Positions 47,088 to 61,498 of a stretch of 64,000 bases of DNA are shown here, one piece after another. Both the position numbers and the translations under genes were made by a program. The stretch comes from Halorubrum depositum (GTDB lineage Archaea > Halobacteriota > Halobacteria > Halobacteriales > Haloferacaceae), in contig NZ_VCNM01000001.1 of NCBI RefSeq assembly GCF_007671725.1, positions 930,001 through 994,000 on the forward strand, written 5' to 3'. The first letter of the stretch is position 1; every line of letters starts with the position of its first letter. The notes beneath the pieces were generated by a model that was not told the origin of the DNA, did not search any database, and saw only the letters and a list, made by a program, of their open reading frames with translations.

Positions 47088-48281
47088 CTACTCCCGGCGG
47101 TTCGAGAGCTCGACGTCGTCGTCTTCGGATTGCAGGTCCACGACGTTTTCGCGACCGATCCGGACTCGGCTGACGACCCCCTCTTCCTCCAGGTCCGACA
47201 GCACGCGGCTCACCTTCGCCTTCGACCACTCCGTCGACTCGATTATCTCGCTCTGTCGCATTCGCCCCTCGTTTCGGTCGAGCAGCCGGCAGACGACCTC
47301 CTCGTTCGTCAGGATCGACTCGTCGATCGGCGGCCGCTCCTCCCCGGCCTCCCCGTCGGTCGAGGGCTGATCCGCCCCGGCGCCGTCGGCGCCGTCGGCG
47401 TCCGGCGCGTCGGATCCCGCGCTCGCCTCCTCGCCCCTGTATCTGCGGACCGTCAGCACGCCCGCCCAGGCGATCGCGATCAGGGCGAGGAGCGCCGCGG
47501 CCACGTATCGGTGGAGGAGGTACGGCTCGGTCGGATCGAGTCCCAACCGAACGAGCGTCGCGTCGTTGACGCCGTCGCCCGTCGTGTCGCGCACCAGCGG
47601 GTTCGTTCCGTACGTTTTCACCTCCTCCCAGTCGGTCAGTCCGTCACCGTCCGTGTCGGGTGTCGTGATGTCCGTTCCGTGCTCGAACTCCTCCGCGTTC
47701 GTGAGCCCGTCTCCGGTGAGATCGCCCTCCTTCTCGATCACTCTCACCTGAAAGGTCGTTTGGTCGACGACTTGGTCGTCGCTGAGGCCCGGGTCGGACA
47801 GCTCCAGGAGGACGGTGTGGTTCCCGGTCGCGTTGTCCGGCCAGGAACCGGTAGAGAGGACGACGGTCCGGGTGGAGTCGGCGGAGAGCTCGACAGCCTC
47901 GCAGTCGAACGAGACCGACGAGTTCTGGCTCTCGCTGAAGCCCCGTCCACAGAGGTCGTACGACCCGCTGTCGTTGTGAGACGCGACGGTGACGTTCAAG
48001 CGGAGCTCCTCCTCCTGCCAGACGAACGCGGGGCCGGGGTGGTCGTCGATCATCTCGTACTGCGACTCGTTGTAACCGGGGCCCTCGAGCGTCACGTTCT
48101 GGATCGCGGCGCCGCCCGAGTCGACCTGGGCGGTCCCCGAAGTCACGTCCTGGGCAGTTCCCGAGGTCGCGCCTCCCGCCAGCGACGCCTGCCCGATGCC
48201 GGCCGCCGCGCCGGAACACACGACCGCGACGAGAAGGAGGGAAACGACGGCGGATCGCCCGAGTTCACGGGCCCCGCTCAT
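47088..48281 (-). CDS. Membrane sensor: calcium-repeat ectodomain fused to cytosolic winged helix
   Basis: A 397-residue protein. After a signal peptide (SAVVSLLLVAVVCSGAAAGIG) comes a ~160-residue beta-rich ectodomain with two cysteines (DLCGRGFS, SFDCEAVE), then EF-hand-like thrombospondin type 3 repeats (DLTGDGLTNAEEFEHGTD, DTDGDGLTDWEEV, DTTGDGVNDA), one membrane helix (VAAALLALIAIAWAGVLTV), an acidic linker and a C-terminal winged helix (EEVVCRLLDRNEGRMRQSEIIESTEWSKAKVSRVLSDL). Topology puts the calcium repeats outside and the DNA-binding domain inside, so it may be a one-component transcription regulator. Confidence 0.82.
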   Translation of the reverse strand: MSGARELGRSAVVSLLLVAVVCSGAAAGIGQASLAGGATSGTAQDVTSGTAQVDSGGAAIQNVTLEGPGYNESQYEMIDDHPGPAFVWQEEELRLNVTVASHNDSGSYDLCGRGFSESQNSSVSFDCEAVELSADSTRTVVLSTGSWPDNATGNHTVLLELSDPGLSDDQVVDQTTFQVRVIEKEGDLTGDGLTNAEEFEHGTDITTPDTDGDGLTDWEEVKTYGTNPLVRDTTGDGVNDATLVRLGLDPTEPYLLHRYVAAALLALIAIAWAGVLTVRRYRGEEASAGSDAPDADGADGAGADQPSTDGEAGEERPPIDESILTNEEVVCRLLDRNEGRMRQSEIIESTEWSKAKVSRVLSDLEEEGVVSRVRIGRENVVDLQSEDDDVELSNRRE

Positions 48282-49392: not shown

Positions 49393-49491
49393 CTCGGCGG
49401 GTGTCGGTCGCCGTTCGGTTCTCGACGGGCGTCGGTCGCCGTTCGGTTCTCGGCGGGTGTCGGTCGCCGTTCAGTTCTCGGCGGGCGACGG
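49393..49491. repeat. 28-base tandem repeat overlapping the end of the HTH/TM gene
   Basis: Three head-to-tail units CTCGGCGGGTGTCGGTCGCCGTTCGGTT start at 49393, 49421 and 49449, with a partial fourth at 49477. The last unit includes the stop codon (49471-49473) and final codons of the minus-strand HTH/TM gene; the others lie downstream of the stop. Unit differences are two to three bases. Confidence 0.8.
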
Positions 49492-50130
49492 CACGAGTGC
49501 GGAGCGGTACGTGTACGCCGTCGCGGCGACGAACATCGCGAGCACGCCCGTCGCGACGGCGATCCCCGAGGGGAAGGTCATCAGCACGCCGACCCAGCCG
49601 GCGGCCACCGCGAGCGCGGCGCCGCCCGCGGCCCCGAGGACCGTCTTGTGCCGCTCGCTTTCCTCCGCGGACGCGGACCCCCCCTCCGGTGGACTCTCTC
49701 CGGGCGGTTCCAGGTTCAAGTACCGCTGGACCCGATCGAGCCGGGGTCGGGGCTCGACGTAGCCGCGCGGTTTGTTGTAGTCGATGAGCCCCAAGCTGTC
49801 CAGCTTCGGCAGGTGGGACTGATACAGCGCGATGTACACGCGCTGGCGCTGGTCCGAGTGCAGCTTCTGTACCGTCGTGTCGTTCTCCCACGCGGCGATC
49901 TGTACGGCCATGTCGCGCATCTCGACGACGTCATCGTCGACGTCGTCCAGGTAGCGGAGGACGTTTCGCCGTCGCTCGTTCTGTAAGACGTGGAACACGT
50001 CGTCCAGTTCGAGCGATTCGGCGTCGGAGTCAGCCTTCTCGATACCCGGAAGCGACTCGGCGGACACGTCGCCGGCCTCCGGTTCCGATCCCGTCGGTTC
50101 GTCTCCTTCGGATTTGGATGCTGCTTGCAT
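49471..50130 (-). CDS. Membrane-anchored winged-helix regulator, second copy (DUF7344 type)
   Basis: A 219-residue paralogue of the 35295-35894 protein. The HTH part reads LDDVFHVLQNERRRNVLRYLDD, VEMRDMAVQIAAWENDTT, RQRVYIALYQSHLPKLDSLGLIDYN, and two membrane helices follow (LGAAGGAALAVAAGWVGVLM and GIAVATGVLAMFVAATAYTY). The ~40-residue acidic N-terminus is disordered. The ATG at 50130 is chosen; a TTG at 50157 is possible. A minus-strand CATTTATC box lies near 50172-50179. Its stop is inside a 28-base tandem repeat, and no DUF1102-like partner adjoins it. Confidence 0.8.
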   Translation of the reverse strand: MQAASKSEGDEPTGSEPEAGDVSAESLPGIEKADSDAESLELDDVFHVLQNERRRNVLRYLDDVDDDVVEMRDMAVQIAAWENDTTVQKLHSDQRQRVYIALYQSHLPKLDSLGLIDYNKPRGYVEPRPRLDRVQRYLNLEPPGESPPEGGSASAEESERHKTVLGAAGGAALAVAAGWVGVLMTFPSGIAVATGVLAMFVAATAYTYRSALVPSPAEN

Positions 50131-51105
50131 CTGTGGCTCACCCTCGAGTGGACGCAACCATCCACAGATAGATAAATGGGAGATACAATTTCGGGTGATT
50201 ACACCATATTTCTCACCCTTTCACCGAGTTTCAGTCAACTCGGTATGGTTGCGTCTCTGATTCGTCTCGCGAACGCATACGCGAAGAGACGTTGGTGAGA
50301 CCGGACGAGGCCGCTCCGTCTCGTGGTTTCACCGTGACAGTCAGAGGAGACGCCATTACAGTAGTATCGGTGTAATCCCACGGCGGATCGCTCGGTTTGG
50401 ATCGACCTAAGAGCACGAGCGTCGGCTCGCGTCCCGGACCGGTGAGAGACCGGTCATAGACTCTCGGACGGGATCGAACTCGCGTCGCGTGCGGGCTCCA
50501 CGCGCGCCGGGACCCGTGCGAACCGACGCTCGCCCCGTCGAGGCGCGCGTCGCGAAGCGAACCGAGACCGCCGGCCCTCGGCGTCGTACACGTTGTCGCC
50601 GTTGAGAACGGCGAACCGACCGGACACGCGATCGGCCGCGGCTCGCCGTCGGGCGTGCCCGGCCTCCGGTGGACCGACCCGAGCGGCCCTCTGACGGCTC
50701 TGTGGAGACCGAGCGCTCGACGGGGGACTGTGCCTGCGGACGTCCGGACGGGATCCGGCTGTGGCGCATCTGTACGAGGAACCGAGGCGACCACCGATAT
50801 ATATCTCTGACAACGCGCGTGTGACTCGTTCGGTTACCTCGCGGTAAGACGAGGGAAACAGCGCCCGTGCGGCCGGCCGCCGACGTACGGCAACGCTAAT
50901 TGGGGCGACGCCCGCGACGCGTCGTTCGGAAGCACTGACGCCCCGTGACTCTCTCGTCGTTCTCTGAGTATCGACCGTTTCAATCGTCGTATCACGCAGT
51001 TACACCGGGTTTCACGGCGCCATTTCGGATTAACAGTTCGGTTATTCCCTTATCTGGCTCGTAGCAATGTGGACGGAGCACGGAGGGTTCGATGGGGTAC
51101 AACCC
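50131..51105. other. Gene-free stretch between the HTH/TM gene and the repeat lipoprotein
   Basis: About 970 bases with no gene I can support. It carries the HTH/TM promoter at its left end and the lipoprotein promoter at its right end (GGTTATTCCCTTATCTGG, ~51042-51059). Three overlapping minus-strand frames between 50231 and 50813 are Arg-rich and non-acidic, unlike haloarchaeal proteins. Confidence 0.5.
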
Positions 51106-51588
51106 ATGGTACGCAAAGAGCTCGACCGCCGGAAGTTCGTTAGCATCGTCGGTGCGGCCGGAATAATCGGTCTCGCCGGCTGTTCAGACGAGCCGGAAGG
51201 GCCTTCGAACGGGACGGGAAGCGGCTCCGATGGCGGCACCGGAACCGACGGAACAGATGGCGGTACCGGAACCGACGGGACTGACGGTGGCACCGGAACC
51301 GACGGGACTGACGGTGGCACCGGAACCGACGGGACTGACGGTGGCACCGATGACGGAACTGACGGTGGTACCGACGGGACTGACGGCGGTACCGAGGACG
51401 GAACTGACGGTGGCACCGACGGGACCGACGGTGGCACCGATGACGGAACAGATGGCGGTACCGACGGAACCGACGGCGAGACGGGCAACGAAACGGACAG
51501 CGAAGCGGGCAACGAAACCGACGGCGAGACGGGCAACGAAACGGACAGCGAAGCGGGCAACGAAACCGACGGCGAGACGAGCGGGTAA
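51106..51588 (+). CDS. Lipoprotein made only of signal peptide and repeats
   Basis: A 160-residue exported lipoprotein. The signal DRRKFVSIVGAAGIIGLAGC has a Tat-like pair and a lipobox at ~Cys26. All of the mature part is low complexity: (GGTGTDGTD)n units, then (DGGTDDGTDGGTDGT) variants and finally (GNETDSEA/GNETDGET) units that give four N-glycosylation sequons. No globular domain follows, unlike most haloarchaeal lipoproteins, where such a stretch tethers halocyanin or another domain. It may be truncated by loss of its 3' part or be a pure surface spacer. The DNA is correspondingly an imperfect 24-27-base tandem repeat. Confidence 0.65.
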   Translation: MVRKELDRRKFVSIVGAAGIIGLAGCSDEPEGPSNGTGSGSDGGTGTDGTDGGTGTDGTDGGTGTDGTDGGTGTDGTDGGTDDGTDGGTDGTDGGTEDGTDGGTDGTDGGTDDGTDGGTDGTDGETGNETDSEAGNETDGETGNETDSEAGNETDGETSG

Positions 51589-51794: not shown

Positions 51795-52916
51795 TCACAC
51801 GGCCCCGGACGAGTCCGTGGTCCGCCGCAGCGAAACGAGGAACACCGTTCCCTCGGGGTCGTTGTCCTCGATGGATATCTCGCCGCCGAACTGCGTGACG
51901 AGTCGGTGGGCGAGCGTCAGCCCCACGCCGAGCCCGGTGCTTTCGGCCCCCTTCGTGTTTTCGGCGAAGACGGCCTCGCGATGGTGTTTCGGGATCCCCG
52001 TCCCGTTGTCGGCGACCCTGATCGTGACGGTGTCGCCGTCGGCCACCGCGTCGACGTGAACGGTCGGCGTCTCCTTGTCGTTGTACAGCACCCCGTTGTT
52101 GATCAGGTTCGCGACGACCGACGAGAGCAGCTTGTTCGCCTTGACGGACGTCTCGGGGACGGACCCGAGCGTCACCTCCGCGCCCCCGTACAGGCGGGTC
52201 GCCTTCTCGACTTCGTCCCTGAGGATCTCCTCGAGGTCCACGTCGCCGAGCGAGTCCCGATCGTCGGCCATCGCGTCCAGGGCCTCGCCGATCATGTCCG
52301 TCAGCTCGAGGACGTGGGTGCCCGACTGTCTGATCTCCTCGAGGATCGACTGTCCGCGCGGGTCGACGTGGTCGGTCAGCTCCGAAGCCCGACCGAGGAT
52401 GAGGCTGACGTCGTTTCGAACGTCGTGACGGGTGAGACGGTTCAGGATCGCGAGCTGGTTCGTGCGTCTCCTGAGCGTCCGTTCCGTCTTCTTCCGTTTG
52501 ATGGCGTACTGGACGGTCAGAAGCACCATCTCGGGCGTCAGCTCCCCTTTCACCAGATAATCCTGCGCCCCCCTCGCGACCGCTTCCCCGCCGAGTCGCT
52601 GTTCGGGCATCCCCGTCAAGACCACGATCGGAACGTTCGGGTCGACGTCGACGACGGCGTCGACCGTTTCGGCGCCTTCGCTGTCGGGAAGCTGGAGGTC
52701 GAGGAGGACGACGTCGTACGTCCCCTCGCGGAGGCGTGCCGTTCCCCCGTCGACGGTCTCCTCGTGGGTGAACTCGACGCTCTCGAAGCCGCTCCTGTCG
52801 AGTATGCGTTCGAAAAGCCCCGTCCGCTTCGCCGTTTTGTACTGCTCCCGGAGGATCCGCGCGTCCGCGGAATTGTCCTCGATCAGCAGCACGGACATAA
52901 CCGTTTCGTCAGTCAT
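51795..52916 (-). CDS. Hybrid receiver-histidine kinase
   Basis: A 373-residue cytoplasmic sensor kinase with an N-terminal receiver (LLIEDNSADARILREQY, phospho-acceptor Asp in VVLLDLQLPDSEG, Lys in DYLVKGELT), a connecting helix, a HisKA-like helix with H-box LTRHDVRND, and a HATPase domain (NLINNGVLYND, VADNGTGIP, STGLGVGLTLAH). The receiver-first architecture suggests that it is itself controlled by another kinase. It lies 27 bases after the HxlR-receiver-HalX gene on the same strand, forming a two-component operon. ATG at 52916 or 52898 are both possible. Confidence 0.88.
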   Translation of the reverse strand: MTDETVMSVLLIEDNSADARILREQYKTAKRTGLFERILDRSGFESVEFTHEETVDGGTARLREGTYDVVLLDLQLPDSEGAETVDAVVDVDPNVPIVVLTGMPEQRLGGEAVARGAQDYLVKGELTPEMVLLTVQYAIKRKKTERTLRRRTNQLAILNRLTRHDVRNDVSLILGRASELTDHVDPRGQSILEEIRQSGTHVLELTDMIGEALDAMADDRDSLGDVDLEEILRDEVEKATRLYGGAEVTLGSVPETSVKANKLLSSVVANLINNGVLYNDKETPTVHVDAVADGDTVTIRVADNGTGIPKHHREAVFAENTKGAESTGLGVGLTLAHRLVTQFGGEISIEDNDPEGTVFLVSLRRTTDSSGAV

Positions 52917-52943: not shown

Positions 52944-53828
52944 TCATGAGTCGCCGTCCGGCTCCAGGGCCGTGACCAGCTGGTCCGGGCCGTCGTGCCC
53001 CTCGGCCGGATCGTCGATCTCCGACTCGAGCGTCGCCAGCCGGGCGAGCAGCTGTTCGTATCGGTCGTCGCGCGCCAGCTCTACCGCCGCGAACTTGCTT
53101 TCGAGCAGCGCGCGCTTCGCGTTCAACACCAGATACTCCTGCGTCCGGTCGTCGTAGGAGTCCCTCGTCAACACGTCCGTGACCAGCTGCGTGAGCTGTT
53201 CTTTCGTCCCCGGTTTCGTGAGGTACGCGTCGAAGGGCATGTCGAGGATGTCCAAGTCGGGGATGATCGCGGTGAGCATGATCACCCGCGTGTCGAACCC
53301 CCAGTCGCGTATCTGTTCGAGGACCTCCTCCCCGGGCATCCCCGGCATCCGTCGGTCGAGCAGCACGACGTCGACGTCTTCGGACAGCTTCGAGAGGGCG
53401 CTCTCTCCGTGATACGCCCGCACGACCTCGTACTCCTCCTCGAGCCAGCCGGCGTACATGTTCACGAGACGCGGGTCGTCGTCGACGAGGAGGACGGTCG
53501 GATCGGGGTCGAGGTACCGTTCCCCCCACGCGGCCAGCGAGGAGAGGATCGACTGCAGATCTCGCCCGTCGTCGGTCAGGGCGTACTCGACCCGCTTCGG
53601 GGATTCGCTCACGACGGTCCTGTCGAGGAGCCCGTTGTCGACCAACTCCTCGAGGCTCTCGGTGAGCACCTTCGAGGAGATCCCGTCGAGGCGCTCTTGG
53701 AGCTCGCTGAACCGTAACGGCCCGTCGGCGAACAGCCGCTGGACGATGACCGGGTGCCACTTCTTGGAGATGACGTTCATCGCCACCGTGAGCCGCTCGA
53801 CGTCCCGTTCGGTTCCGTCTCCCGTCAC
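52944..53828 (-). CDS. HxlR-type winged helix fused to receiver and HalX
   Basis: A 294-residue regulator. Residues 1-95 are an HxlR-type HTH (MNVISKKWHPVIVQRLFADGPLRFSELQERLDGISSKVLTESLEELVDNGLL). The receiver follows (VLLVDDDPRLVNMY, Asp in VDVVLLDRRMPGMPG, Lys in AYLTKPGTKEQL), and HalX closes it (SYDDRTQEYLVLNAKRALLESKFAAVELARDDRYEQLLARL). The GTG at 53828 is chosen because a TATA-like box CCGTATAATAAG (53854-53865, minus) lies 26-37 bases upstream and the HTH needs the preceding ~17 residues. HTH before receiver reverses the usual order. Confidence 0.85.
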   Translation of the reverse strand: MTGDGTERDVERLTVAMNVISKKWHPVIVQRLFADGPLRFSELQERLDGISSKVLTESLEELVDNGLLDRTVVSESPKRVEYALTDDGRDLQSILSSLAAWGERYLDPDPTVLLVDDDPRLVNMYAGWLEEEYEVVRAYHGESALSKLSEDVDVVLLDRRMPGMPGEEVLEQIRDWGFDTRVIMLTAIIPDLDILDMPFDAYLTKPGTKEQLTQLVTDVLTRDSYDDRTQEYLVLNAKRALLESKFAAVELARDDRYEQLLARLATLESEIDDPAEGHDGPDQLVTALEPDGDS

Positions 53829-53853: not shown

Positions 53854-53865
53854 CTTATTATACGG
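53854..53865 (-). promoter_or_regulatory. TATA box of the two-component operon
   Basis: On the minus strand CCGTATAATAAG lies 26-37 bases before the GTG at 53828. It falls within the longer ATG-started frame (to 54077), which argues against that longer protein. Confidence 0.6.
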
Positions 53866-55470: not shown

Positions 55471-56472
55471 TTACCCCCCGTACCCCTCGGCGTCGACCGG
55501 GCCGCTGAACACGCCGTAGAGGTACTTGAAATACCACAGCACCAGCAGCAGGACGGGGAACCCGAGGACGGTCACGAGATTCAGCGCCAGCGGCGAAACG
55601 ACTGCCGCCCTGACGGTCAGCCCGGTCGGCGGGTAGATCGTCGGGTACAGCAAGAGCGCGAGCAGCACGCTCAACAGCGCGGGGAGCGCCAGCGCGCTCG
55701 CCAGCCAGGCGCGGTACCGGCCGCGTCTGGCCAGAACGATCCCTCCCAGCCCCGCGGCGATCGAGAGAGCGACGACCGCCGCCGCGGGCAGCGAGAGGAC
55801 CGTCTCGGCGGCACCGGCCGCGTCGGTCGCGACGGCGGACGCCAGCAGCGCGACCGTCCCGACGAGGTACGCCAGCGTCGCGGCGACGCCGTACCGGCGC
55901 AGGTCCGACGCCAGGTCCGGTTCGCTTTTCGCCGCGAGGAACGCCGCTCCCGTGGCGACCGAGACCGCGGTCAGGCAGACGCCGGTGAGGAGCGCCGGAA
56001 GCGACAGCGTCGCCGCGTCGAACGCCCAGCGACCCGCGAGCACCCCGAACAGCAGCGGTGCGAGTGCGCTGCCGCCGACGAAGGAGTAGTCGCAGTACCG
56101 CTTCCACCGCTCGTCGTCGCGCTGTTCGCGGAGCTCCGGACCGACCCCGCGGAACAGCAGCGCGAACACGAACCCAAACACGAGCAGGTAGTGATCCGCA
56201 AACAGGCTGGAGTACACCCGGGGGAACGCCGCCAGCAGCATCGTCCCGAAGGCGATCAGCCACACCTCGTTGGCGTCCCAGACCGGACCGAACGCCGACA
56301 GGAACGTCTCTCGCTCGTGTTCGGTCGTCCGGGTCGCGTACAGCATCCCGATCCCGAAGTCGAACCCGTCGAGGACGACGTACGTCCCCAGCGCGAACAC
56401 GACGGCGCCGAACCAGATCTCCGGCAGCGAGGAGACGAGATAGGCGTCGACGGGCAGCAACGACTCAGTCAT
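55471..56472 (-). CDS. cydB: Cytochrome bd-type quinol oxidase subunit II
   Basis: A 333-residue membrane protein with about eight or nine helices. EIWFGAVVFALGTYVVLDGFDFGIGMLYA is the family N-terminus, followed by WDANEVWLIAFGTMLLAAFPRVYSSLF, the characteristic subunit II signature, and DGFDFG. It works with CydA to oxidise quinol with oxygen at high affinity. Its ATG lies 8 bases inside the end of cydA, so the two are one unit. Confidence 0.92.
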   Translation of the reverse strand: MTESLLPVDAYLVSSLPEIWFGAVVFALGTYVVLDGFDFGIGMLYATRTTEHERETFLSAFGPVWDANEVWLIAFGTMLLAAFPRVYSSLFADHYLLVFGFVFALLFRGVGPELREQRDDERWKRYCDYSFVGGSALAPLLFGVLAGRWAFDAATLSLPALLTGVCLTAVSVATGAAFLAAKSEPDLASDLRRYGVAATLAYLVGTVALLASAVATDAAGAAETVLSLPAAAVVALSIAAGLGGIVLARRGRYRAWLASALALPALLSVLLALLLYPTIYPPTGLTVRAAVVSPLALNLVTVLGFPVLLLVLWYFKYLYGVFSGPVDAEGYGG

Positions 56473-57913
56473 CGCCGCTCACCTCGGGGAGCGGGCCGCG
56501 CCAACTGTCGTCGACCGACTCGTCTGCGCCGAGCGTCCGGAGTTCGTCTCGGACCAACCATTTCAGGACGTACAGCGCCGTTACCACCAGCCCGACGTAG
56601 ACCCCGACGAACCCGATCAGCGATAGGGTCGCCTCCGCCCCGGTCAGCGTCGGGGAGACCGCCTCACTGGTTCTGAGCTCCCCCTGAATGACCCACGGCT
56701 GGCGACCGATCTCGGTGACGTACCACCCCGTGAGCAGGGCGGCGTATCCGAGCGGCGACGCCGCGACCATCGTTTTCAGATAGCGGTCGCTGTCGGAGAG
56801 CCGCCCGTCGTAGGTGAGATAGCCGCCCCACAGCGCCAGCGCGATGAACAGGAAGCCGAGCCCGACCATCACGCGGAACGACCAGAACACGAGGGCGACG
56901 GGCGGGTTCTCCTCGTACTCGTTCAACCCGATCACCTCGGCGTCGAAGTCGCCCCCGCTGGCGAGGAACGACCCGACTCGTGGCAGGCTCACCGTAACGA
57001 GGTTCTCGGCGCGGGGATCGTTGAGCGCGTCGACGTCTCTCGGGAACGCGAGCAGATGTAAGTCGGCTTCGTCCGTCTCGTAGTGGGCTTCCATGGCCGC
57101 GAACTTCTGCGGCTGGGTGTCTTGGACGTGGCGGGCGTAGGCGTCGCCGTGGACGGCCTGCATCGGCGCGGTGACGAGGAGGATCACCACGGCGAGCTTC
57201 AACGCGGTGTTCCACGCCTCCGTCTCGCGGGACTTCCAGACGATGTACGCCGAGACGCCCGCGACCAACAGCGCGACCGCGATCACCGACGCGTTGATCA
57301 TGTGGACGTACATCCAGGGCATTCGCGGGCTGAGGAACGCGGCGCTCGGGTCGGTGAGCCGGGCGACCTCCATCCCGTCGCGGGCGACCATCTCGTATCC
57401 CCTCGGCGTCTGCATCCACGCGTTGACGATCAGGATCCAGAACCCCGACAGCCACGCGCCGACGCCGACGAGCACCGACGAGAGGACGTAGGTTCGATCC
57501 CGGACGCGCTCTCGTCCGTACAGCAGCACGCCGAGGAAGACGGCCTCGAGGAAGAAGGCCATCTTCGCCTCGAAGGCCAGCGGACCGCCGATGAGCTCGC
57601 CGGCCACCGCCGAGAACTGCGGGAAGTTCGTCCCGAACTGAAAGCTCATCGGGATCCCGGTGACCGTCCCCATGACGAAGCCGACGGCGAACACCGTCAC
57701 CCAGAACGAGCGCAGTCGCGCGAACCGCTCGTCGTCCGTTCGCACGTCCTTCCAGGTGAAGTAGATGATAAACGGCGCGAGACCGATCGAGAGAGACGCG
57801 AAGAGGATGTGAACGGAGATCGTCCAACCGAACTGTGCACGGCTCGCGAGCTCCGGGGAGAGGAGCGCGACCCACCCCGGATCGACGCCGCTGAATAGCG
57901 TGCTCGGCGACAT
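56465..57913 (-). CDS. cydA: Cytochrome bd-type quinol oxidase subunit I
   Basis: A 482-residue haem-bearing subunit. LASRAQFGWTISVHILFASLSIGLAP carries the first haem-ligand histidine (His35); FGTNFPQFSAVAGELIGGPLAFEAKMAFFLEAVFLG and GAWLSGFWILIVNAWMQTP are the conserved helices with the proton-channel glutamates; RMPWMYVHMINASVIAV holds the next haem histidine; ALVFWSFRVMVGLGF has the methionine. The quinol loop is of the short type. The ATG at 57913 is where the family begins (upstream ATG at 57937 rejected). Confidence 0.93.
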   Translation of the reverse strand: MSPSTLFSGVDPGWVALLSPELASRAQFGWTISVHILFASLSIGLAPFIIYFTWKDVRTDDERFARLRSFWVTVFAVGFVMGTVTGIPMSFQFGTNFPQFSAVAGELIGGPLAFEAKMAFFLEAVFLGVLLYGRERVRDRTYVLSSVLVGVGAWLSGFWILIVNAWMQTPRGYEMVARDGMEVARLTDPSAAFLSPRMPWMYVHMINASVIAVALLVAGVSAYIVWKSRETEAWNTALKLAVVILLVTAPMQAVHGDAYARHVQDTQPQKFAAMEAHYETDEADLHLLAFPRDVDALNDPRAENLVTVSLPRVGSFLASGGDFDAEVIGLNEYEENPPVALVFWSFRVMVGLGFLFIALALWGGYLTYDGRLSDSDRYLKTMVAASPLGYAALLTGWYVTEIGRQPWVIQGELRTSEAVSPTLTGAEATLSLIGFVGVYVGLVVTALYVLKWLVRDELRTLGADESVDDSWRGPLPEVSGDD

Positions 57914-58795
57914 TGCGCCTCTTTTGGCTCGGAGCACTAAAGAAGATTAACCCGACTCCCCGTTTCGAGGACCGCACTGCAACAACTTATCAGTGTCAAG
58001 CCGTAGCTCTGAATGGACACCGTCCGGGTTACGGTCGACCGACGAGGCGACGGGATTTCCGCGTATCCGGCCTCGAATCGACAGCCTCGCCGGCGGCTGC
58101 GACTGAGTCACGAGAGCTCCCGCGGAGCGAGAGGGTCGTGCGGGACCTCGCGGAGCGAGAGGAGACCGTGCGCACGGGCTACCGAGGCCCGGTATCCGTC
58201 CGCGCGCGACAAGTATCACTTTCTTATACAGTCACTTCTCAGTACGAATCCGGTGTTGAACGCGGTCGTCCGACGGCTCGTAGTCGGGCCCGAAGAGGCG
58301 ACCTACAGCCCGCAGACGGAAGCGATCCGCATCACGTCGTACCCGAGAAAACCGCGAGTCGGAACGTCGATCGGCGCGATCGTCCGGACGCGCCCGTCGA
58401 TCTGTGATCGATGAACCGTCTCCAACTGGCCTCTTGACGTCGATATCGCTGTCTCCCACGGAACCGGTTCACCGAGCTCCGCGCGAAACGGGGGCCGGAC
58501 GTCGCGACCTCCCTCGCGATGGGGAGCCACGGGCCCACGCCGCCGTCACGGGCTCCGATCCCGACGCGAAACGGGCGGAAGTCGGAACGGCGATGAACGT
58601 GTTATCAAACGGTAAAAACGAGAAACGTACCGCTTCGCGAGTACGTTCGAAACGGAGATTCGATCTCCTCGATCGGTGAGACGGACGAGCGATCGCCTCC
58701 CGCGACGCACGATCGATCGGGATATTCACTCGGAACCGAGGCAAACATTCGTTCGGACATCGCTTTTAACCCGCCGCGACGGGTGTGACTGTGTC
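57914..58795. other. Gene-free stretch between cydA and ppc
   Basis: About 880 bases with no supported gene. It contains the cydA promoter (CTTCTTTAG on the minus strand, ~57938-57946), a duplicated CGCGGAGCGAGAGG element (~58116 and ~58148), and the ppc TATA box TCGCTTTTAAC (~58760-58770), 26-36 bases before the ATG. Overlapping short frames on both strands are Arg/Ser-rich and not credible. Confidence 0.5.
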
Positions 58796-61498
58796 ATGGA
58801 GTTGCACAATCGAGACGTGCGGACGGACGTCAGGGAGCTCGGCGCGCTCGTGGGCGACGTCCTCGCCGCGCAGGCCTCCACGGAGGCGTACGAGACGGTG
58901 GAAGACCTACGGAACGCGGCGATCCGGTACCGCCGCGGCGACGCGGAGAGCCGCGACCGGCTCCAGGAGACCGTCGGCGACCTCTCGTCGAACCGCGAGG
59001 AGATCGTCGCCCGCGCGTTCACCACCTACTTCGAGCTGATCAACCTCGCCGAGGAGCGCGAGCGCGTCCGCGCCATCCGGAACGCGGACGACGAGGGCGC
59101 CCTCCACGACTCCTTCGAGGCGACGATCGCGGAGTTCGCCGAGCAGGGCGTCGGGCCGGACGAGCTGCGCGAGCTGTTGGAGGACGTGCTCATCGAGCCG
59201 ACGTTCACCGCCCACCCGACCGAGGCCCGCCGGGCGACGGTGAAGGCGAAGCTGCGGTCGATCGCCAACCACCTGGAGGAGCTCGACGAGCGCAACCTAA
59301 CCGAGCGCGAGCGCAACGCGATCTGGCGCGACGTCACCGCCGAGGTGACGAGCCTCTGGGGCACCCGACAGGTGCGCCAGCGCCGCCCGGAGCCGGAAGA
59401 CGAGGCGCGAAACGTCGGCTGGTACTTAGAGAACACCCTCTTCGACGTCGTCGGCGACGCCTACGAGGAGTTCGAGGAGACCATCTCCGGCGAGTACGAC
59501 GACGTCGACTGCCCGAAGCTGTTCGAGTTCCGCTCGTGGGCCGGGTCGGACCGCGACGGCAACCCGTTCGTCACGCCCGAGGTCACCGACGAGACGCTCG
59601 AGCGCCAGCGGGCGGTCGCCATCGAGAAGTACCGCGACCGGTGTAAGCGGCTCTCGGCCGTGTTGAGCCAGGACGGCGAGCGGTACGCGATCGACGACCG
59701 ACTCACGGAGTCGCTCGCGGCCGACGCCGAGCGCTTCCCGACCGTCGTCGAGGAGGCGCGGGAGCGCTACCCCGACGAGCCGTACCGTCAGAAGCTCCGG
59801 CTGATGCGCGAGCGGCTCGACCGCGTGGACGACGTGCGCCCCGGCGAGTACCCCGACGGCGACGCGTTCCTCGCCGACCTCGACGTGATCGCCGAGTCGC
59901 TCCGGGCCGACGGCCAGGACGCCGTCCGCGAGTCGTTCGTCGAACCGCTCCGCCGACAGGTGGACACGTTCGGGTTCACGCTCGCGTCGCTCGACCTCCG
60001 CGACCACCGCGAGAACCACACCGAGGCCGTCGCCGAGGCGGTCGCGAGCGAGGGCGTCGACTACCGCGAGATGGACGAGGAGTCGCGCGAGGAGTTCCTC
60101 ACCCGGGCCATCCTCCAGGACGACCCCGTCGTCGACGCCGACGACCCGGGCGACGTCTCCGACACGACCGAGCGCGTGCTGGAGCGGTTCAGCGAGCTCG
60201 CCGAGTGGCAGGAGGAGTACGGCCAGCAGGCGATCGACACCTACTGCATCTCGATGACCGAGGAGCCGAGCCACGTGCTCGAGGTGCTCTTTTTGGCCGA
60301 CCAGGTCGGCGCGGTATCGCTGCCGGACCACTGCGGGCTCGACGTCGTCCCGCTGCTGGAGACCGAGTCCGCGCTCAACGGCGCCGAGCGCATCCTCGGG
60401 ACGCTGTTCGACAACGAGGCGTACGCGACCGCGCTGGCGGTGCGCGGCGACGTGCAGGAAGTAATGTTAGGCTACTCCGACTCCAACAAGGAGAACGGCT
60501 TCCTCGCCGCGAACTGGGACCTCTACGAGAACCAGCGCCGGATCGCGCGGTTCTGCCGCGAGGAGGACGTCACTCTCCGGCTGTTCCACGGCCGCGGCGG
60601 CTCCATCTCGCGCGGCGGCGGCCCGATGAACGAGGCGCTGCTCGCGCTGCCGAACGAGACCGTCACCGGACAGGTGAAGTTCACCGAGCAGGGCGAGGCG
60701 ATCGCCGAGAAGTACGCCAACCCCCGGATAGCCGAGCGCGAGCTGGAGCAGATGCTCGACGCGCAGATCCGCGCCCGCCACGAGACCCACGAGGAGCCCA
60801 CCGAGCGCGTCCCCGACGCGTGGGTCGACGCGATGGAGACGATGGCGCCCGCCGCCCGCGAGACGTACCGCGACCTCCTGAACACCGATGGGTTCGTCGA
60901 CTACTTCGGGCAGGCGACGCCCATCTCCGTTGTCGAGGACCTCAACCTCGGCTCGCGGCCCGCCTCCCGCTCCGGCGAGCGCACCGTCGAGGACCTGCGC
61001 GCCATCCCGTGGGTGTTCTCGTGGACTCAGACGCGGCTCATCCTCCCCGGCTGGTACTCGCTCGCCTCCGGCATCGACGCTTACCTCGACGAGGTCGGCG
61101 AGGACGAGGGGCTCGAAACGCTCCGCGAGATGTACGAGGAGTGGCCGTTCTTCCGCACCACCCTCGACAACGCCGGGCTCGCGCTCGCCCGGACGGAGCC
61201 GGAGATCGCCGCCGAGTACGCCGACCTCGCCGACGACGAGCTCCGCGACCGCTTCTTCCCCGAGCTGATCGGGGAGTACGAGCGCGGCCGCGAACTCGTC
61301 CTCTCGATTAGCGGCCGCGACGGGCTCCTCCGACGCGAGTGGCTCGAAGAGAGCCTCGACCGACGGAATCCCTACGTCGACCCGCTGAACCTGCTGCAGG
61401 CGAACCTGCTCGGACGCACCCACCGCACCGAGGAGGAGGAGCGCACGCTCCGGCTCACGGTCAACGGCATCGCCGCCGGGATGAAGAACACCGGATAG
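58796..61498 (+). CDS. ppc: Phosphoenolpyruvate carboxylase
   Basis: A 900-residue bacterial-type PEP carboxylase that makes oxaloacetate from PEP and bicarbonate, replenishing the citric acid cycle. The catalytic histidine is in FTAHPTEARR (His140), with SWAGSDRDGNPFVTPEVT, GYSDSNKENGFLAANW, the second histidine-arginine motif FHGRGGSISRGGGP, the allosteric/PEP segment VKFTEQGEAI and RAIPWVFSWTQTRLILPGWY. The C-terminus ends in the canonical AAGMKNTG. The start follows a TTTTAAC box; the longer frame to 58676 passes through that promoter and is rejected. Confidence 0.96.
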   Translation: MELHNRDVRTDVRELGALVGDVLAAQASTEAYETVEDLRNAAIRYRRGDAESRDRLQETVGDLSSNREEIVARAFTTYFELINLAEERERVRAIRNADDEGALHDSFEATIAEFAEQGVGPDELRELLEDVLIEPTFTAHPTEARRATVKAKLRSIANHLEELDERNLTERERNAIWRDVTAEVTSLWGTRQVRQRRPEPEDEARNVGWYLENTLFDVVGDAYEEFEETISGEYDDVDCPKLFEFRSWAGSDRDGNPFVTPEVTDETLERQRAVAIEKYRDRCKRLSAVLSQDGERYAIDDRLTESLAADAERFPTVVEEARERYPDEPYRQKLRLMRERLDRVDDVRPGEYPDGDAFLADLDVIAESLRADGQDAVRESFVEPLRRQVDTFGFTLASLDLRDHRENHTEAVAEAVASEGVDYREMDEESREEFLTRAILQDDPVVDADDPGDVSDTTERVLERFSELAEWQEEYGQQAIDTYCISMTEEPSHVLEVLFLADQVGAVSLPDHCGLDVVPLLETESALNGAERILGTLFDNEAYATALAVRGDVQEVMLGYSDSNKENGFLAANWDLYENQRRIARFCREEDVTLRLFHGRGGSISRGGGPMNEALLALPNETVTGQVKFTEQGEAIAEKYANPRIAERELEQMLDAQIRARHETHEEPTERVPDAWVDAMETMAPAARETYRDLLNTDGFVDYFGQATPISVVEDLNLGSRPASRSGERTVEDLRAIPWVFSWTQTRLILPGWYSLASGIDAYLDEVGEDEGLETLREMYEEWPFFRTTLDNAGLALARTEPEIAAEYADLADDELRDRFFPELIGEYERGRELVLSISGRDGLLRREWLEESLDRRNPYVDPLNLLQANLLGRTHRTEEEERTLRLTVNGIAAGMKNTG

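Follow-up and report, generated by a model that had tools for sequence, protein, structure and literature searches.

The HxlR-REC-HalX response regulators of haloarchaea have a conserved partner, a kinase that carries a receiver of its own (REC-kinase), and the active sites of kinase and regulator receiver degenerate together. The clade that includes the regulator studied here is linked to polysaccharide genes in its other members. This regulator and its kinase lie in the window, a stretch of 64,000 nucleotides of Halorubrum depositum DNA, and comprise the following features:

52944..53828, minus strand: HxlR-REC-HalX response regulator of 294 aa with a GTG start (Pfam and upstream comparison; product from 52947-53828)
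53505..53774, minus strand: HxlR winged-helix domain, residues 19-108 (Pfam PF01638, E 6e-27)
53181..53495, minus strand: receiver domain, residues 112-216 (Pfam Response_reg, E 2e-17)
52992..53168, minus strand: HalX domain, residues 221-279 (Pfam PF08663, E 7e-14)
53854..53862, minus strand: TATA-like element TATAATAAG, 25 nt upstream of the GTG, putative promoter element
51795..52916, minus strand: REC-HisKA-HATPase kinase of 373 aa, beginning 27 nt past the regulator stop (Pfam)

All three regulator domains scored above their curated Pfam cut-offs in the order HxlR, receiver, HalX within a single chain, and no stop codon separates them, which bears out the sequence-only reading that an HxlR-type helix-turn-helix (HTH) is fused to the N-terminal side of a receiver and a HalX domain. 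The active-site set of the receiver is complete, with the acid pair D116 and D117, the phospho-acceptor D158, T186 at the T/S position and K205. AlphaFold2, run on the window protein with one full-length homologue as alignment, returned a poor model (mean pLDDT 49.8, pTM 0.35).

Comparison with Halorubrum sp. Hd13 (L031), whose fused homologue of 89% identity was the one full-length relative returned by the contig scan, points to the GTG at 53828 as the probable start. In an ungapped comparison, identity was 28/30 in each of two coding 30-nt blocks, 22/30 in each of the two blocks immediately 5' of the GTG, and 4-14 of 30 in the eight outer upstream blocks; a gapped alignment stretched the likeness further 5', solely with small insertions and deletions. 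Identity thus drops about 60 nt ahead of the GTG, and a longer open frame reaching back to 54077 was rejected as the start on account of this drop. A true start after the HTH, which would make the HTH a separate gene and was the outcome that the sequence-only reading had set against its own claim, is exceedingly improbable: the single open frame holds all three domains, the upstream identity falls where it does, full-length matches recur across genomes (see below), and no point in support of a separate HTH gene was found. A leaderless transcript would fit the position of the TATA-like TATAATAAG, and boxes resembling it were spotted by eye 5' of several type A homologues (defined below). When the sequences 5' of the gene were inspected by eye in the window, in Hd13 and in six related type A loci, TATA-like boxes were seen, but no convincing conserved palindrome or operator.

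Some part of the protein was matched in 380 of 391 class genomes, an even draw from the larger group, by a single-protein search. The fused form, sought with a profile of 20 fusions, occurs at no fewer than 84 places in at least 70 of the 391, a lower bound that counts listed rows spanning both profile ends, with six candidates scored in each genome. Among the matches listed, at least 7 of 46 genomes of the window's genus carry a fused row, and identity above 50% to the window protein was confined to the window genome and Halorubrum sp. Hd13. The window genome contains four HalX and three HxlR matches, which coincide in one protein only at 52944-53828; three of the four HalX matches have no fused HxlR, in line with the statement that HalX proteins often lack an HTH. 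The architecture itself is already published. HxlR-REC-HalX is listed in Table 1 of Galperin et al. 2018 (PMC5847659), where HalX, listed for Halobacteria, REC-HalX and HxlR-REC-HalX are typical architectures, and HVO_1357 (PMC7824242) is an earlier case of HalX combined with a DNA-binding domain, so that the novelty claimed for it earlier was too strong. The window gene is a real, well-preserved member of this published class. According to Galperin et al. 2018, the function of HalX is undocumented, archaeal DNA-binding response regulators are rare and REC-HisK proteins are possible intermediates of phosphorylation cascades (PMC5847659).

We compared the window with 40 other fused loci (41 in total), which were the best full-length matches, not a random draw, of the 84 fused places seen. 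Flanks of about 7 kb were taken where contigs allowed (shorter at contig ends in L057, L058, L070 and L072), neighbouring ORFs were called by a simple acidic-proteome ORF score, and 14 REC-HalX-only loci served as controls. The loci fell into three types. Type A comprises the window and L056-L067 (13 loci, 7 genera, six of the 13 from one genus), and in four of these a small stand-alone receiver, Pfam-checked in one, sits between regulator and kinase and overlaps the regulator end. The 11 loci of type B all have a long kinase (818-1971 aa) overlapping or abutting the regulator end, with PAS/GAF domains checked in L073. The REC-kinase gene stands divergent to the regulator in 10 of the 17 type C loci, precedes it on the same strand in 5 and follows it in 2. 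A 7TM-kinase family (HisKA_7TM checked in L084) is found in 9 of the 17; this family also occurs in 1 type A, 2 type B and 2 control loci.

The unrooted REC-HalX tree placed the window gene inside clade A (support 100/95) and the 14 REC-HalX-only proteins in a clade adjoining A (99/99). Type C appeared at two places (C1 with 18 rows, C2 with 5), as did type B, with L085 apart. An unrooted HxlR tree split 47 fused domains from 9 stand-alone HxlR proteins (97/92); it is built on a short alignment with a small stand-alone sample and long branches, and type A is not one clade in it.

The gene next to the regulator encodes the receiver-first kinase that the sequence-only reading had described. Its receiver, at the N-terminal side, and its HATPase domain scored above the Pfam cut-offs, and its HisKA domain fell below (16.8 of 26.9 bits; the sequence there is RHDVRND). 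The receiver residues E13, D14, D73, T101 and K123 are present, as are the catalytic residues H164, N274 (N box), D303-G305 (G1) and G328/G330/G332 (G2). The pair had also been called a complete phosphorelay. This is overstated, since Pfam reported no sensor domain in either regulator or kinase, and the locus does not hold a sensor input together with a His-Asp-His-Asp chain; in the relatives a separate kinase lies nearby, the long one in all type B loci and the 7TM kinase in the nine type C loci given above.

A REC-kinase homologue was detected in the fetched stretch of 40 of the 41 fused loci (the exception being L095) vs 0 of the 14 controls in a strict test with the window kinase as query and at least 250 residues aligned. 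With a looser family test, the figures were 41/41 fused loci and 2/14 controls. Distances among kinases and among regulators were correlated (r 0.90 over 40 loci; 0.95-0.96 within A, B and C1), a correlation to which shared species history contributes.

Active-site residues were then counted in alignments of at least 250 residues with no filter on kinase length, which lost L095; an earlier count had been restricted to kinases of 330-460 aa (36 rows, including two paralogues). In type A, 13/13 kinases keep H164, the N box and the glycine boxes, and D158, K205 and a T or S at 186 are retained in 13/13 regulators, D117 being N in two (L061, L066). The type B kinases have the His in 10/10 and the ATP boxes in the 9/9 that were readable (L068 was unreadable), and the 11 type B regulators keep the active-site set, with E for D116 in two. 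Active sites are thus kept in 23/23 type A and B pairs, counting two receivers with a D-to-N change and one kinase read in part, and are altered in 15/15 type C1 pairs, those 15 of the 18 C1 tree rows that had flanks (L077-L094). D117 is replaced in all 15 C1 regulators (A, G or S in 12; the milder E in L080, L083 and L093), T186 is lost in 14, L078 being the exception; K205 is unchanged throughout, and D158 is replaced in 2. The kinases of these pairs lack the His in 12 cases; L080, L083 and L093 keep it, with N274 changed to E and D303 to G. The kinases' own receivers retain E-D-D-T-K in 15/15. In two C2 loci, D117 is present, the kinase receiver is degenerate and the ATP boxes are altered. 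C1 is one clade, so these changes represent few independent losses, and a Fisher value calculated from the counts serves purely as a description of the table. This co-degeneration supports the predicted transfer from the REC-kinase to the regulator, and the C1 branch, judging by its residues, seems to have abandoned phosphate transfer entirely.

The neighbourhoods of type A revealed the second association. GT4 was found in 10 of the 13 loci (across five genera), DUF1616 in 9, DegT and a pectate-lyase-like family in 8 each, a deacetylase in 7, GT2 in 6, LpxD-like and TSP3-DUF7343 proteins in 5 each, and hexapeptide and Gfo/Idh families in 4 each. At E 1e-15, all ten were absent from the type B (0/11), type C (0/17) and control (0/14) loci, which for GT4 makes 10/13 vs 0/42; because the families were drawn from type A loci, these zeros are in part a consequence of that choice. 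Repeated at E 1e-4 with less coverage, the search detected at least one of seven glycan families in 12/13 type A loci (the window being the exception), 1/11 type B loci, 1/17 type C loci and 0/14 controls. Names rest on Pfam for one member of each family, or on the pHOS300 annotation for Gfo/Idh and the acyltransferase: GT4, GT2, DUF1616, DegT and hexapeptide (LpxD-like) scored above cut-off, the deacetylase exactly at it, and the pectate-lyase and LpxD models under theirs. The annotated order on the Halorientalis plasmid pHOS300 (L132), namely glycosyltransferase family 4, regulator, response regulator, ATP-binding protein and DegT, together with Gfo/Idh, acyltransferase and nucleotide sugar dehydrogenase, agrees with the type A order. 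Within the literature covered (titles and abstracts, with subscription journals mostly outside), HxlR-REC-HalX was not linked to polysaccharide and paired degeneration was not described.

Type B loci have other neighbours (L068-L076, L085): a small secreted-looking protein in 7 of 11, a signal peptidase in 6, DUF5305 in 5 and a weakly TafC-like protein in 5. The signal peptidase matches the archaeal model TIGR02228 (56.9 vs a cut-off of 51.85 bits). The labels TafC (30.8 of 410 bits), TafE (16.8 of 155) and SipW (31.4 of 190) fall far below the NCBIfam cut-offs and were set aside as hints only. On a Haloarcula plasmid with the type B set, none of those neighbours is annotated in the 8 kb upstream of the regulator.

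Around the window pair itself, the following neighbours were identified:

47088..48281, minus strand: protein with a TSP3 repeat and a C-terminal DUF7343 winged helix (Pfam); a homologue lies near the regulator in 5/13 type A loci, one of them the window
49471-50157: DUF7344 protein near the pair, its C-terminus hydrophobic by eye
51067..51588, plus strand: small lipoprotein-like ORF with a low-complexity tail of T-D-G repeats
55471-57937, the regulator's strand, upstream of the regulator: cydAB, subunits II and I of cytochrome bd oxidase

The flanks of the regulator hold cydAB and an AstE/M99-like peptidase. The lipoprotein-like ORF had no Pfam match; similar ORFs were seen by eye in L060, L063, L064 and L065, where the tails are other acidic repeats. 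By eye, the TSP3-DUF7343 protein begins with a signal-like segment and contains a transmembrane-like stretch; it is a candidate membrane-bound regulator. A 940-aa ORF at 58676-61498 looks phosphoenolpyruvate carboxylase-like by eye. When the ten type A families were tested in the 15 kb around the pair, TSP3-DUF7343 was the only one present, and the closest PF00534 (GT4) and PF07760 (DUF1616) matches on the contig lie at 896-900 kb, about 83-87 kb off. The idea that the window pair sits inside a glycan cluster was therefore rejected. Adjacent glycan genes are a feature of the relatives and not of the window genome, and the polysaccharide target proposed below is drawn from those relatives.

We propose that the kinase phosphorylates the regulator, which would control surface-polysaccharide genes through its HxlR domain; we regard this as evenly balanced between right and wrong. 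The proposal builds on what was computed, namely domain content, start, pairing across genomes, active-site co-conservation and the glycan linkage of the clade. The two genes would form one transcription unit. An upstream signal, probably a phosphoryl group from a separate sensor kinase, would arrive at the receiver of the REC-kinase, which would autophosphorylate at H164 and then phosphorylate the regulator at D158. Once phosphorylated, the regulator may pair its HxlR winged helices differently or change their geometry, and so bind DNA differently. HalX would most likely be a helical segment for dimerisation or docking. Genes of a cell-surface or exo-polysaccharide locus would be the most likely targets in the window's clade. 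Points that tell against the proposal are the missing glycan families around the window pair, the choice of neighbour families from type A, the share of a single genus among the type A loci, the D117-to-N change in L061 and L066, the sub-threshold HisKA, the lack of a conserved operator by eye and the poor structure model.

Two other explanations bear on separate parts of this proposal. The pair may be real and yet have lost its glycan linkage, and control its present neighbours instead, whether the peptidase, the DUF7343 protein, the cytochrome bd oxidase or the lipoprotein-like ORF. We consider this somewhat unlikely. The adjoining cydAB and peptidase genes and the distance to the nearest glycan families speak for it; however, called-ORF clustering found no partner of cydA or cydB in the 12 other type A loci, and the neighbours common to the window and type A are the REC-kinase and the DUF7343 protein, with the peptidase recurring in Hd13.

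The phosphotransfer step could be wrong instead: the regulator may answer to a different kinase or to protein contact, and the REC-kinase beside it may be a phosphatase or scaffold. The C1 pair persists although needed residues are changed in both of its proteins, so contact alone can hold the genes together. Against this stand the active-site residues, which the window pair and the 23 A/B pairs retain with the exceptions noted above, and we judge the explanation unlikely. Phosphorylation of the regulator by its neighbouring kinase remains our preferred reading.

A wider synthesis of the three types is possible but doubtful. HxlR-REC-HalX and REC-kinase may together constitute a haloarchaeal module for control of the extracellular matrix, directed in clade A to surface polysaccharide and in clade B to secreted proteins beside a signal peptidase of SipW likeness, one of them weakly TafC-like. 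C1 would work without phosphotransfer, a REC-pseudokinase with an intact receiver signalling to a pseudo-receiver regulator by contact alone, and in part of the loci the signal would come from the 7TM kinase. The widespread REC-HalX proteins would be descendants of a fused ancestor after loss of the HTH. In this family, HalX occurs together with an identifiable DNA-binding domain and a partner kinase that is conserved; its intact and doubly altered pairs form a natural contrast in which the phosphotransfer question is directly testable, and the gene linkage suggests the cell-surface matrix as a target process for regulators without an assigned role.

Compared with known systems, the window protein is identical in domain content and order to the HxlR-REC-HalX entry of Galperin et al. 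2018 (PMC5847659), the passages of which used here give no partner, phylogeny, neighbourhood or function for that entry. HVO_1357 of Haloferax volcanii, which consists of receiver, HalX, GAF, BAT and HTH-10 domains and affects motility, likewise combines a receiver, HalX and a DNA-binding domain in one chain beside a kinase gene (PMC7824242). It differs in its Bat-type HTH-10 at the C-terminus, its additional GAF and BAT domains and its link to motility (PMC7824242). The LtrR-type HTH-REC regulators, named in PMC5847659, have the DNA-binding domain ahead of the receiver as in the window protein, which is distinguished by its HxlR-type winged helix and extra HalX. REC-HalX regulators are 44-50% identical in the REC-HalX part (14 used) and sister to type A in the unrooted tree, but they have no HxlR domain and a strict REC-kinase match nearby in 0/14. 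The one-component HxlR-family proteins YodB and HxlR, both with solved structures, have the HxlR winged helix in common with the window protein, which unlike them has a receiver attached. YodB and HypR are thiol sensors; the window protein contains no cysteine, and a thiol sensor of this style is thereby excluded. By its domain, the regulator is a candidate HxlR-family transcription factor, predicted to bind DNA sequence-specifically as a dimer.
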